Assembly (NCBI RefSeq): GCF_016724845.1
Contig: NZ_CP068082.1
Location: forward strand, 4,836,001-4,900,000
Reading direction: 5' to 3'
Length of the DNA stretch: 64,000 nucleotides
DNA from: Sphingobacterium spiritivorum
Lineage (GTDB): Bacteria > Bacteroidota > Bacteroidia > Sphingobacteriales > Sphingobacteriaceae
A model generated the notes under the pieces. That model made no database searches. It was not told where the DNA came from and was given only the letters and a program-made list of their open reading frames with translations. The position numbers were made by a program, and so were the translations under genes. Below are positions 4,635 through 23,673 of this stretch, one piece after another (positions within the stretch are counted from its first letter, which is position 1; each line of letters starts with the position of its first letter).

Positions 4635-6845
4635 ATGAAAGAGTATGTGATTGATATTGAAGCTGAAAACAAAGAAATTCGCAAAAGATATAGAGATTTA
4701 TTGAGAGCGTGCAAGCCGACTTTACAACGCGGCGACAAACAAGAGATACGTAAAGCATTTGATCTGGCTCTGGAAAGTCATAAGGAAATGCGCCGCAAAT
4801 CGGGCGAGCCTTATATTTTCCACCCTATCGCTGTAGCCAAAATTGCTGCGGACGAGATCGGACTTGGTACTACATCGATTGTATGTGCACTGTTGCATGA
4901 TGTCGTTGAAGATACAGCTATCACCTTACAGGAAATTGAAGATCAGTTTGGGAAAAAAGTGGCCCGCATCATCGATGGCCTAACCAAAATATCGGGTATA
5001 TTCGATCCGAACAGCTCTATGCAGGCGGAAAATTTCCGTAAAATGCTGCTGACGCTGGCGGATGATGTACGCGTAATCCTTATTAAACTGGCAGACCGCT
5101 TACATAATATGCGGACAATGGAGTTTATGGCGCGCGACAAGCAGTTGAAGATTGCTTCTGAAACAAGCTATCTCTACGCTCCGCTGGCTCACAGATTAGG
5201 ACTGTATGCGATTAAGTCCGAACTGGAAGACCTTTCCATGAAGTATACCGATCCGGATACCTATAAATTTATAGCGAAAAAGCTGAATGAAAAGAAAGCA
5301 GAACGTGAGAAATTTATTTCGGATTTTGTCGGACCGGTTAAAGAGATTCTGGAAGAACAGGGGATTAAAGCTGAAGTATTCGGCCGTCCTAAATCTATTC
5401 ATTCTATCTGGAACAAGATGCGCAAAAAGTCTATACCTTTTGAAGAAGTATATGACCTGTTTGCGATCCGTATCATTATAGACACGGATTATGAAAAAGA
5501 GAAAACAGAATGCTGGAAGGCTTATTCTATTGTGACGGATCTATACAGACCAAATCCGGATCGCTTGCGCGACTGGGTATCCTCTCCTAAAGGAAACGGA
5601 TACGAATCTCTGCATACAACTGTAATGGGTCCGCGTGGACAATGGGTAGAAGTACAGATACGCACCAAACGCATGAATGAGATTGCAGAAAAAGGATTTG
5701 CGGCACACTGGAAATACAAAGAATCCAATTCGGACAGCGGACTGGATCAGTGGATTCAGAAAGTAAGAGATGTACTGAGCAGTGCTGATTCGAATGCGCT
5801 GGACTTTGTGGATGATTTTAAAATGAATCTTTTCTCGGATGAGATTTTCATTTTTACGCCCAAAGGAACGCTTATTCAGTTGCCCAATGATGCCACAGCC
5901 CTGGATTTTGCCTTTGAGATACATTCGGATATCGGTGCGACCTGTATCGGTGCTAAAGTCAACCACAAGCTTGTACCACTGAGTCATAAGTTACAGAACG
6001 GTGATCAGGTCGAGATCATCACTTCTGGTAAGCAGGTACCCAAAGAAGATTGGCTCAACTTTGTCGTAACGGCCAAAGCCAAGTCCAAAATACGCTCGTC
6101 TCTCAAAGAGGAAAAGCGCCGCGTGGCGGAAGACGGCAAGGAAATACTGGAGCGCAAACTAAAATCGCTGAAGATTACCTATAACACTGATAATATCAAT
6201 AAGATTTCTAATTATTTTAAGTTTCCGAGCTCACAGGAATTATTTTACAATGTGGCCAAAGGAACTATAGATATCAAAAATCTGCGCGATTATGCAGCCA
6301 GTGAAAAACTGATTGACACTTCGCCAAGTCAGTTTAGCTCCCACATCAGCGGATTAGTAGAAAAAATAAATAAGAAAGACCTGGATACGTTGTTGATTGG
6401 CGACGATCTCCAGGAAGTAGATTATACGCTGGCACCTTGTTGTAATCCTATTCCCGGAGATGATGTATTCGGATTTCTGACAGTAAATGACGGCATAAAA
6501 ATACACCGTACAAGCTGTCCGAATGCGTCTAAGCTGATGGCCAACTACGGATACCGTATTCTGAAAGCTAAATGGGCTTCTTCAACATCCAACAATGTGG
6601 CTTTCCTTACCGGATTGCGTATTGTCGGAATCGATGACGTCGGATTGGTCAACAAGATTACTACCGTTATATCTCAGGAGTTTAAGGTCAATATCCGCTC
6701 GCTGTCTATATCAAGTAATGAGGGTATTTTTGAAGGAAATATCATGGTATTTGTCAACGATACAGATCAGTTGGATAATCTGATTAAAAACCTCAAACAT
6801 ATCAGCGGAATAACCGGAGTGACACGATATGAATCGGAGAATTAA
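4635..6845 (+). CDS. Bifunctional (p)ppGpp synthetase/hydrolase (RelA/SpoT, Rsh)
   Basis: This 736-residue cytoplasmic enzyme makes and breaks the alarmone (p)ppGpp. An HD hydrolase domain (about residues 50-200) shows YIFHPIAVA and HDVVED. The synthetase domain (about 240-370) has YDLFAIRIII, GNGYESLHTTV and GFAAHWKYKE. A TGS domain (about 400-460, IFTPKGTLIQLP) follows. Next is a zinc-finger-like stretch with LAPCCNPIPGD and SCPNASKL (about 600-640), and a C-terminal ACT domain completes it. With the HDVVED motif intact the hydrolase is probably active. As is usual in Bacteroidota, one long Rsh may do both reactions. The start codon gives the expected full length. Confidence 0.96.
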   Translation: MKEYVIDIEAENKEIRKRYRDLLRACKPTLQRGDKQEIRKAFDLALESHKEMRRKSGEPYIFHPIAVAKIAADEIGLGTTSIVCALLHDVVEDTAITLQEIEDQFGKKVARIIDGLTKISGIFDPNSSMQAENFRKMLLTLADDVRVILIKLADRLHNMRTMEFMARDKQLKIASETSYLYAPLAHRLGLYAIKSELEDLSMKYTDPDTYKFIAKKLNEKKAEREKFISDFVGPVKEILEEQGIKAEVFGRPKSIHSIWNKMRKKSIPFEEVYDLFAIRIIIDTDYEKEKTECWKAYSIVTDLYRPNPDRLRDWVSSPKGNGYESLHTTVMGPRGQWVEVQIRTKRMNEIAEKGFAAHWKYKESNSDSGLDQWIQKVRDVLSSADSNALDFVDDFKMNLFSDEIFIFTPKGTLIQLPNDATALDFAFEIHSDIGATCIGAKVNHKLVPLSHKLQNGDQVEIITSGKQVPKEDWLNFVVTAKAKSKIRSSLKEEKRRVAEDGKEILERKLKSLKITYNTDNINKISNYFKFPSSQELFYNVAKGTIDIKNLRDYAASEKLIDTSPSQFSSHISGLVEKINKKDLDTLLIGDDLQEVDYTLAPCCNPIPGDDVFGFLTVNDGIKIHRTSCPNASKLMANYGYRILKAKWASSTSNNVAFLTGLRIVGIDDVGLVNKITTVISQEFKVNIRSLSISSNEGIFEGNIMVFVNDTDQLDNLIKNLKHISGITGVTRYESEN

Positions 6846-22420: not shown

Positions 22421-22494
22421 AAAGAAAAAGCCTGGAAGAATCGGGCGATTTTCCAGGCTCTAAAATACCTCTTTACGAGGCAATCAACCTAAAC
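22421..22494 (-). ncRNA. Candidate small RNA C (~74 nt)
   Basis: On the minus strand a promoter-like pair (22532-22501) is followed by a transcript that opens with TCTTAGGTTTAGGTTG. It then forms a small hairpin CCTC/GAGG, and ends in the hairpin AGCCTGGAA/TTCCAGGCT with an inner AATC/GATT extension and loop GCCC. TTTTTCTTTTTG follows as the U-tract. No ORF of note lies inside. The 5' segment TTAGGTTTA is shared with candidates A and B. Expression is not shown, only the gene-like layout. Confidence 0.6.
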
Positions 22495-22500
22495 CTAAGA

Positions 22501-22532
22501 CGAAGTTAGAGGTAATATAATTAACTTGCAAA
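22501..22532 (-). promoter_or_regulatory. Promoter of candidate small RNA C
   Basis: On the minus strand TTTG (22532-22529), 20 bases, then TAACTTCG (22508-22501). This is one mismatch from TAnnTTTG. Confidence 0.5.
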
Positions 22533-22612
22533 TTTATTTTATCTTTTTGGGAAATTATCTGATGATTGTCGATCTACAACCGGTTGTTTTATCGAATAAC
22601 AATAAAATTTTT

Positions 22613-22680
22613 AAAAAAATAAAGGTTTTCAAACGGGGAGAATGAAAACCTTTAATAACCAATTATAAACCTAAATTATG
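22613..22680 (-). ncRNA. Candidate small RNA A (~68 nt)
   Basis: On the minus strand a consensus promoter precedes a short transcript that starts near ATCATAATTTAGGTTTA. It ends in the perfect 10-bp stem AAAGGTTTTC/GAAAACCTTT with the C-rich loop ATTCTCCCCGTTT and a seven-T tract. The downstream plus and minus strands have no adjoining ORF, so it is not an obvious leader. It is nearly identical to candidate B, 950 bp away. The two copies differ by compensating changes in the stem (TTTTC/GAAAA versus TTTCC/GGAAA), which supports a selected RNA hairpin. Confidence 0.68.
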
Positions 22681-22686
22681 ATAGCA

Positions 22687-22717
22687 CAAAGATAGTGTAC
22701 ATACTACACTATTCAAA
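22687..22717 (-). promoter_or_regulatory. Promoter of candidate small RNA A
   Basis: On the minus strand TTTG (22717-22714), 19 bases, then TATCTTTG (22694-22687). This is a full match to the Bacteroidota consensus. Confidence 0.7.
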
Positions 22718-22747
22718 ATATTTTTTTTATTTTTTTTTAGAATTAGT

Positions 22748-23475
22748 TTTATCCTCCTATGCTGCAGGTGCGGACACCTGCAGACGCTCTATCTGATGAC
22801 ACTTTACCGATGTACTATGTTAAACCTCTATTGCGTCAGTTGCCGTCCTCACCAAATGTTTTAACGATAGAACACAGGAGTCTTTTCTACCTTATGTTTC
22901 AGGTTTGGACACTTGCAGACGCTCTATCTGATGACATTTTACAGATGTGCTAAGTTAAACCTCTATTGCTTCAGTTGGCGTCACCGCCAACTGTTTTCAC
23001 GATAGAACACAGGATTCTTTTCTACCTTATACTACAGGTGGGGACACCTGCAGACGCTCTATCTGATGACATTTTACAGATGTGCTAAGTTAAACCTCTA
23101 TTGCGTCAGTTGCCGTCCTCACCAAATGTTTTAACGATAGAACACAGGAGTCTTTTCTACCTTATGTTTCAGGTTTGGACACCTGCAGACGCTCTATCTG
23201 ATGACATTTTACAGATGTGCTAAGTTACACCTCTATTGCTTCAGTTGGCGTCACCGCCAACTGTTTTCACGATAGAACACAGGATTCTTTTCTACCTTAT
23301 ACTACAGGTGGGGACACCTGTATACGCTGTATCTGATGACACTTTACCGATGTGCTATGCTAAACACATCTATTGCGTCAGTTGGCGTCCCCGCCAACTG
23401 GTTTAACGACAGAACACAGGAATATTTTGACAATACACTATAAGTGCAGACCTGCAGACGCTGTATTTGAGAAGA
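22748..23475. repeat. 135-bp tandem array of paired REP-like palindromes (five units plus a partial)
   Basis: The GACGC (or its variant) after the first palindrome falls at 22783, 22918, 23053, 23188, 23323 and 23457, a period of 135 bp (the last step 134). Each unit has a forward palindrome such as CAGGTGGGGACACCTG followed by CAGACGC. About 50 bases later it has an inverted one such as GCGTCAGTTGGCGTC..CCAACTG. Units 1 and 3 share one version and units 2 and 4 another, so a ~270-bp dimer was duplicated. Unit 5 is mixed and unit 6 truncated. The layout resembles BIMEs built from REP sequences. The short ORF running through it (22759-22953) ends in stops and is not credible. Confidence 0.88.
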
Positions 23476-23570
23476 TAATGAATTTACACCAGACTAGAAT
23501 GTATTTTTTTAAGTGATTTGTTAAATAGGATTAAGGCCTATATTCTCCTGCAGAATTTGAAAACAGGGTA

Positions 23571-23636
23571 AAAAAGAAAAGGTTTCCAAACGGGGAGAGT
23601 GGAAACCTTTATAACCAATTATAAACCTAAATTATG
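23571..23636 (-). ncRNA. Candidate small RNA B (~66 nt)
   Basis: This near copy of candidate A lies on the minus strand. It has the TTTAGGTTTATAATTGGTTA opening, then the perfect 10-bp stem AAAGGTTTCC/GGAAACCTTT with loop ACTCTCCCCGTTT, and a TTCTTTTTT tail. It lies on the far side of the 135-bp array from candidate A, in the same orientation. Base changes relative to A keep the stem paired and the UCUCCCCGUUU loop unchanged. No ORF is associated. Confidence 0.68.
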
Positions 23637-23642
23637 ATGACA

Positions 23643-23673
23643 CAAAGATAGTGTATTATTAACACTATGCAAA
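23643..23673 (-). promoter_or_regulatory. Promoter of candidate small RNA B
   Basis: On the minus strand TTTG (23673-23670), 19 bases, then TATCTTTG (23650-23643). Sequence and spacing match the promoter of candidate A. Confidence 0.7.

Follow-up and report, generated by a model that had tools for sequence, protein, structure and literature searches.

A multicopy family of small RNA genes in Sphingobacteriaceae, resembling FopS of Bacteroides and predicted to pair with susC start regions

INTRODUCTION

The closest described counterpart of the small RNAs (sRNAs) analyzed here is FopS of Bacteroides thetaiotaomicron. FopS is described as a Bacteroidaceae family of paralogous sRNAs with 14 copies in that species (Rfam RF04319) and a seed of the consensus GTGTTTTTCATAGTATTAGATTTAAGGTTAACAAA; pairing of the seed with susC start codons is experimentally supported, and the partner protein RbpB is an RRM_1 domain protein (PMC11697453). 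A further sRNA of B. thetaiotaomicron, GibS, is encoded by a single gene and has two seeds (R1 and R2) and other targets (PMC7366714). Regarding transcription, AGTGT-N7-ACAC is the operator of AraR, an NrtR-family repressor of Bacteroides, as in the BT0356 site AAAGTGTTACTTTTACACC (PMC4666351). Here, we analyzed a window of 64,000 nucleotides from Sphingobacterium spiritivorum (NZ_CP068082.1), in which an initial annotation had described three related sRNA genes, here called units A, B, and C.

RESULTS

Units A and B are related, and unit C is a separate sRNA

All three units were on the minus strand, as described, with TTTG-N19/20-TAnnTTTG-like promoters and ends formed by a hairpin and a U-tract (direct reading and folds; Table 1). 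The stem change between A and B (TTTTC/GAAAA against TTTCC/GGAAA) is indeed compensatory, and the loop CUCCCCGUU is unchanged. The proposed relationship of all three units holds for A and B, which belong to the same family, but not for C, for which the A/B covariance model (R1, described below) gave a chance-level match of 9 bits to the terminator. No known Rfam family matched at its cut-off in the window, and weak matches (Ref84, ctRNA_p42d, CyaR, and others) were at chance level.

Unit C has only a 9-nt motif in common with A and B. Each of the 25 Sphingobacterium genomes has one copy, in many cases with a B-type unit as its neighbor. In the alignment, the 5' end (TAGGTTTAGGTTGATT) is invariant and is followed by a first stem-loop and by a terminator in which two pairs are compensated. 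In silico hybridization of unit C did not favor susC starts over those of other genes. The score of model R1 and the genus-wide conservation of its own rule out unit C as a third A/B paralogue; judged by its sequence, it is a different, single-copy, conserved sRNA.

Between B and A (window positions 22758 to 23428) lie five tandem copies of a REP/BIME-like unit of 135 bp with the near-perfect palindromes CTGCAGGTG..CACCTGCAG and CAGTTGGCG..CGCCAACTG; one further partial copy was found at another locus (L257).

Table 1. Features of units A, B, and C in the window of S. spiritivorum NZ_CP068082.1
Feature	Position	Strand	Basis
sRNA unit A, about 67 nt + U-tract	23571..23637	(-)	Model R1, 76.4 bits, E 1.7e-15 (unit A was among the sequences building R1); fold
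Unit A, predicted seed (26-nt single-stranded 5' segment)	23612..23637	(-)	Unpaired in fold; family-wide near-invariance
Unit A, terminator hairpin with CUCUCCCCGUU loop, then U-tract	23578..23610	(-)	Fold and covariation
Unit A, promoter TTTG-N19-TATCTTTG, sigma-ABfr type	23643..23673	(-)	Read directly (TTTG 23673-23670, N19, TATCTTTG 23650-23643); class enriched, 50/102 vs 0.06 expected
Unit A, putative operator AGTGTTAATAATACACT, AraR/NrtR type, inside promoter spacer	23650..23666	(-)	Motif identity per PMC4666351
sRNA unit B, about 68 nt + U-tract	22614..22681	(-)	Model R1, 77.8 bits, E 7.6e-16 (unit B was among the sequences building R1); fold
Unit B, predicted seed (26-nt single-stranded 5' segment)	22656..22681	(-)	Fold; family conservation
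Unit B, terminator hairpin with UUCUCCCCGUU loop, then U-tract	22620..22654	(-)	Fold and covariation
Unit B, promoter TTTG-N19-TATCTTTG	22687..22717	(-)	Read directly (TTTG 22717-22714, N19, TATCTTTG 22694-22687); promoter-class enrichment
Unit B, putative operator AGTGTAGTATGTACACT, AraR/NrtR type	22694..22710	(-)	Motif scan
sRNA unit C (UUAGGUUUAGGUUGAUU, stem-loop, terminator with AAUCGCCCGAUU apex)	22424..22500	(-)	25/25 genomes; alignment and pairs
Unit C, promoter TTTG-N20-TAACTTCG	22501..22532	(-)	Read directly (TTTG 22532-22529, N20, TAACTTCG 22508-22501); relatives have TACCTTTG/TATATTTG at the same place

Distribution and architecture of the A/B family

BLASTN with unit B found strong copies in 25 of 25 Sphingobacterium genomes (S. 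spiritivorum and 24 congeners) and about 16 copies in S. spiritivorum itself, where the covariance model counted 16. The initial annotation had suggested a covariance-model search over Sphingobacteriaceae; with model R1, built from 42 diverse units, this search revealed a multicopy family with matches in 106 of 121 sampled genomes, 21 of 25 genera, and up to 33 copies per genome. Since the E-values of units A and B are joined by independent copies genome-wide and family-wide, both units are far beyond chance. When 84,980 species were scanned for an exact 19-mer, at least 120 stretches matched, and among the matches listed, nearly all were from Sphingobacteriaceae, including Sphingobacterium, Parapedobacter, Mucilaginibacter, Olivibacter, Arcticibacter, and Pedobacter. 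When 295 genomes were sampled class-wide, 15 matched R1 at an E-value of 1e-4; nine of these were Sphingobacteriaceae, and the remaining six gave weak single matches, some of a plan similar to that of the family units (L289 and L290, the latter with AATAATTTAGGTTAACAATAAG plus a GUCCCCGC hairpin). No earlier account of an sRNA family from Sphingobacteriaceae turned up in a search of the full-text literature, which is weak evidence because most subscription papers are not covered, and the A/B family is apparently undescribed so far.

The 14 S. spiritivorum copies checked were all located between open reading frames (ORFs) and none was inside one. The complement of the seed contains an ATG, which might have belonged to a leader peptide or to a susC leader of the neighboring genes, but copies without a clear promoter precede unrelated genes on that strand and, thus, are not susC leaders. 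Tandem clusters were seen in other Sphingobacterium genomes (G139:C2:2889547-2890793 and G127:C6:166340-224055).

The family RNA consists of a 26-nt single-stranded 5' segment, UCAUAAUUUAGGUU[U/A]AUAAUUGGUUA (TCATAATTTAGGTT[T/A]ATAATTGGTTA at the DNA level), and a terminator hairpin with a C-rich loop. The 5' segment, hereafter called the seed, is unpaired in the A and B folds, and the 5' ends of the 65- to 75-nt RNAs are predicted to lie 0 to 4 nt before UCAUAAUUU. Seed positions 1 to 7, which are outside the 19-mer pattern used for fetching, were 95 to 100% identical in 150 units, a count that omitted units without CATAA nearby; the conservation of positions 8 to 26 is biased, since these largely served as the fetching pattern. 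Although the stem sequences differ widely, 13 of 13 pairs of the hairpin stem had double-sided changes, and the covariation score was 0.542, whereas shuffling gave 0.235 and sliding the structure gave no more than 0.19. CCC was found within the loop in 159 of 166 units.

Promoters, operator, and upstream elements

Sigma-ABfr-like promoters were found at 50 of 102 T-variant units (0.06 expected), and the loop of these 50 is nearly always UUCUCCCCGUU. A sigma-54-like element (TGGCAY-N5-TTGC-like, at the right distance) preceded 15 of 47 A-variant units (0.08 expected) and none of the 102 T-variant units; the 15 units typically have a UCCCC loop, and this class comprises other copies, not A or B. 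RpoN is encoded in the S. spiritivorum genome.

The motif AGTGT-N7-ACAC, the same as the AraR operator of Bacteroides (PMC4666351), was present upstream of 41 of 153 units (0.05 expected), with a fixed place in the promoter spacer in units of Sphingobacterium, Parapedobacter, and Olivibacter. The S. spiritivorum genome has it at units A and B and at one more copy, and also upstream of eno (L368), pyk (L369), pfkA, and two susC genes (L370 and L371). One site (AGTGTAAAAAATACACT; L372, G000:C1 about 3732430) lies between pfkA and a gene for an NrtR/AraR-type regulator (L372:1782-2303; NrtR_WHD, 1.8e-27; AraR_C, 1.7e-14). Proximity and motif make this protein a candidate regulator of the operator sites, and the sites at pfkA, eno, pyk, and the two susC genes possibly form a sugar regulon of central glycolysis. 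In Bacteroides, AraR controls arabinose genes (PMC4666351), whereas here the motif is found at glycolysis genes, two susC genes, and sRNAs. We also considered the GntR-type regulator YtrA as the owner of the palindrome, but its operator, AGTGTA-13 bp-TACACT (PMC8060467), has a spacing unlike that of the palindrome in the units, which fits AraR.

Many Mucilaginibacter copies begin a few nucleotides 3' of an unannotated tRNA-Leu-like element, which precedes the sRNA core by about 115 nt and often occurs in tandem pairs (L064, L106, L110, L119, L127, L130, L158, L172, L179, L180, and L284). It has an 8-bp acceptor (CTGTAGGA/TCCTACAG or CTGTTGGG/CCCAACAG, compensated), a D-arm, a 7-nt loop (TTGTCSC), a long variable arm with a compensated CGAAG/CTTCG stem, and a T-arm. 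Since neither ARAGORN nor Rfam called a tRNA gene upstream of the Mucilaginibacter copies, we name the element tRNA-like only; we presume that it may be akin to allo-tRNAs.

Complementarity of the seed to susC start regions

The initial annotation had proposed a trans-acting RNA that pairs with mRNA leaders through its C-rich loop or through UUAGGUUUA, and had named leaders of SusC-type genes, running into the start codon, as targets worth testing. S. spiritivorum has 56 SusC genes, of which 50 were used; the controls were 581 gene starts from about 0.86 Mb of regions. When the 26-nt seed was hybridized in silico with the start regions (-40 to +15), the mean energy, which ignores target accessibility, was -11.3 kcal/mol for susC and -8.06 kcal/mol for the other gene starts (Mann-Whitney, P = 4e-12). 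The difference was also found when susC was compared to genes for secreted proteins only (P = 3e-10). Dinucleotide shuffles of the whole seed reached -8.06 ± 0.74 kcal/mol on susC, with 1 of 300 as good as the seed, and shuffled susC leaders reached -8.0 ± 0.3 kcal/mol with the seed. Shuffling the seed also destroys its match to the AUG; the other gene starts are therefore the weightier control. An energy of -11 kcal/mol or better was found for 27 of 50 susC leaders but only 77 of 581 controls (odds ratio, 7.7; P = 1.6e-10); since one or more of the controls are themselves susC genes, this test is conservative. The other 23 susC leaders were weaker than -11 kcal/mol, and the pairing with susC is in most cases discontinuous and of moderate strength (-11 to -15 kcal/mol). 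The same excess was seen in Mucilaginibacter gossypii (-12.4 versus -8.0 ± 0.5 kcal/mol) and Parapedobacter pyrenivorans (-11.4 versus -7.9 ± 0.5 kcal/mol), with 0 of 100 shuffles as good in either species. The predicted pairing spans about -35 through the AUG to +4 and peaks at the start codon. Thus, the start-region search suggested in the initial annotation did find susC leaders complementary to the seed, and the susC excess together with the stem covariation supports its proposal computationally: the seed is predicted to pair over susC start signals. The strongest pairing outside susC (-25.8 kcal/mol) was with the leader of an MFS transporter gene (L259:17313-18569, minus strand), where AACCAATTATAAAGCCTTTATTATGA is a nearly full complement of the seed, making this leader the best single target candidate seen.

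Staphylococcal sRNAs with C-rich loops pair through UCCCC with the Shine-Dalgarno sequence GGGGA, and the A/B family likewise has an unpaired run of C in the hairpin loop. Unlike the staphylococcal loops, which target GGGGA, the A/B loop revealed no clear excess of complementarity to susC mRNAs; for GCUCCCCGC, a small excess was found near the start (-4.2 versus -3.6 ± 0.2). The earlier suggestion that the C-rich loop pairs with mRNA leaders was therefore not borne out at susC.

Comparison with FopS

Both families are multicopy, with RNAs of 65 to 70 nt made of an unstructured 5' seed and a terminator hairpin; both have sigma-ABfr promoters and a seed across susC start codons (predicted for A/B), and both have the block order UUUUCAUA..UUAG.UUUA..GGUUA. 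This shared order (TTTTCATA..TTAG.TTTA..GGTTA in DNA) was aligned as well by 20 of 2000 shuffles of the 28-nt core. Among 4227 Rfam models, RF04319 gave the highest score when unit B was searched alone, and it aligned over the full length in register. This score (17.1 bits, E 0.87) did not reach the gathering cut-off of the model, 56 bits, whereas real FopS loci, as positive controls, scored 68.8 to 74.4 bits; reciprocal scores between the A/B family and FopS were weak. Therefore, by the family's own test, unit B is not a FopS member. The initial statement that the family is not recognized is right insofar as no Rfam model matched at its cut-off, but the closest known family can be named.

The A/B seed has insertions relative to the FopS seed, and in a 32-nt comparison, the excess at local susC leaders over other genes was 4.2 kcal/mol for the A/B seed but 1.5 kcal/mol for FopS. 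The hairpin loop is C-rich (CCCC) in the A/B family and GUGA-like in FopS. AraR-type operators and sigma-54-like promoters were seen in Sphingobacteriaceae units; the parts of the FopS description that were read mention neither. No RRM_1 (PF00076) protein was found in the S. spiritivorum genome, although the Bacteroides ihuae control was positive, and no Hfq was detected; thus, the FopS partner protein is missing here. With GibS, the A/B family shares a long single-stranded 5' seed at start-codon regions (predicted for A/B). Going by sequence, the A/B family is expected to work like FopS in all predicted respects, and the likeness is due either to homology or to convergence on the same susC leader.

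DISCUSSION

We consider it likely that units A and B belong to a set of about 16 paralogous trans-acting sRNAs, each transcribed independently, and that these act as a FopS-like, sugar-linked, post-transcriptional brake on SusC importers. The unstructured 26-nt 5' end would pair with the mRNAs of susC and some other transporters from about -35 to +4 and block translation initiation at the start codon, and the 3' part would serve as transcription terminator and stabilizer. A sugar-responsive repressor of the AraR/NrtR family, with its operator occupying the promoter spacer, probably controls when the A/B class is transcribed. In response to sugar or glycolytic signals, the sRNA level would then rise and the importers of alternative glycans would be shut. 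Other copies would be expressed from sigma-54-like promoters or, where they lie just 3' of a tRNA-like element, might be released by tRNA-type processing. With several such routes of expression, several signals would feed one common seed. Only tentatively do we extend this to sRNA-based carbon catabolite control in Sphingobacteriaceae, in which one sugar-sensing AraR/NrtR-type repressor would control pfkA, eno, and pyk and, alongside them, the sRNAs, with the shared seed directed at dozens of susC genes. The sigma-54- and tRNA-linked copies would bring further signals to the same RNA code, which susC leaders would carry throughout the phylum, and neither Hfq nor RbpB would be involved.

The near-invariance of 26 nt is longer than pairing with variable leaders seems to need, and some susC leaders pair weakly with the seed, as would be expected if these were real trans-acting sRNAs whose 5' end mainly binds a protein or another RNA, with the complementarity to susC leaders being secondary. 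We regard this as improbable, since the excess is specific for susC over other genes and shuffles in three genera, the start of the seed (UCAU) fits the start-codon context AUGA of the targets, and the same logic is experimentally proven for FopS (PMC11697453). The susC leader motif could also exist for another reason, in translation or as a promoter, with the RNA merely resembling its complement. Spread of a mobile or repetitive (REP-like) element by transposition, rather than regulatory genes, would account for many copies per genome, the tandem clusters in two other genomes, and the 135-bp palindromic array between A and B. It is very improbable, however, given that stems of many different sequences covary (13 of 13 pairs) instead of decaying as the initial annotation had considered for a repeat; moreover, the promoters keep a fixed distance and have operators specific to their class, non-homologous loci share conserved promoters and stems that covary, the seed is kept across genera, all 14 S. 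spiritivorum units checked are outside ORFs, and the sRNA unit is no part of the 135-bp repeat. It is hardly credible that the units amount to no more than strong intergenic terminators, arising as by-products and preceded by a conserved leader: an intrinsic terminator does end each unit, but A, B, and C have their own promoters immediately upstream, the invariant 5' segment is not needed for termination, and the seed is complementary to susC starts.

The FopS-like brake on SusC importers is compatible with the units being true FopS orthologues, inherited since before the split of Bacteroidales and Sphingobacteriales and diverged beyond RF04319. FopS being the best Rfam model on full-length unit B, in register, the block order shared with FopS (and matched by 20 of 2000 shuffles of the core), and weak units in other families of Bacteroidia whose plan is similar (L289 and L290) argue for such descent. 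On the other hand, the score is far under the cut-off, reciprocal model scores are weak, the loops differ (GUGA-like versus CCCC), and the same similarity can arise by convergence, since the susC leaders that the two families face are alike; we see orthology as possible but somewhat doubtful.

The presence of a FopS-like seed family in another order, where most of the Sphingobacteriaceae sampled have it, suggests that control of SusC import by RNA is general in Bacteroidota, whether it is ancient or arose more than once against the same susC leader. The family opens tests of how an sRNA works where RbpB and Hfq are not detected, why one seed is kept in up to 33 copies, and by what means importer shut-off is coupled to sugar sensing. 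Model R1 can be used to annotate hundreds of unannotated sRNA genes.

A FopS copy on a viral contig of Bacteroides (L333, about 5870 to 6005) is also located 3' of a tRNA-like element, which has a 19-nt loop at the position of the anticodon loop.
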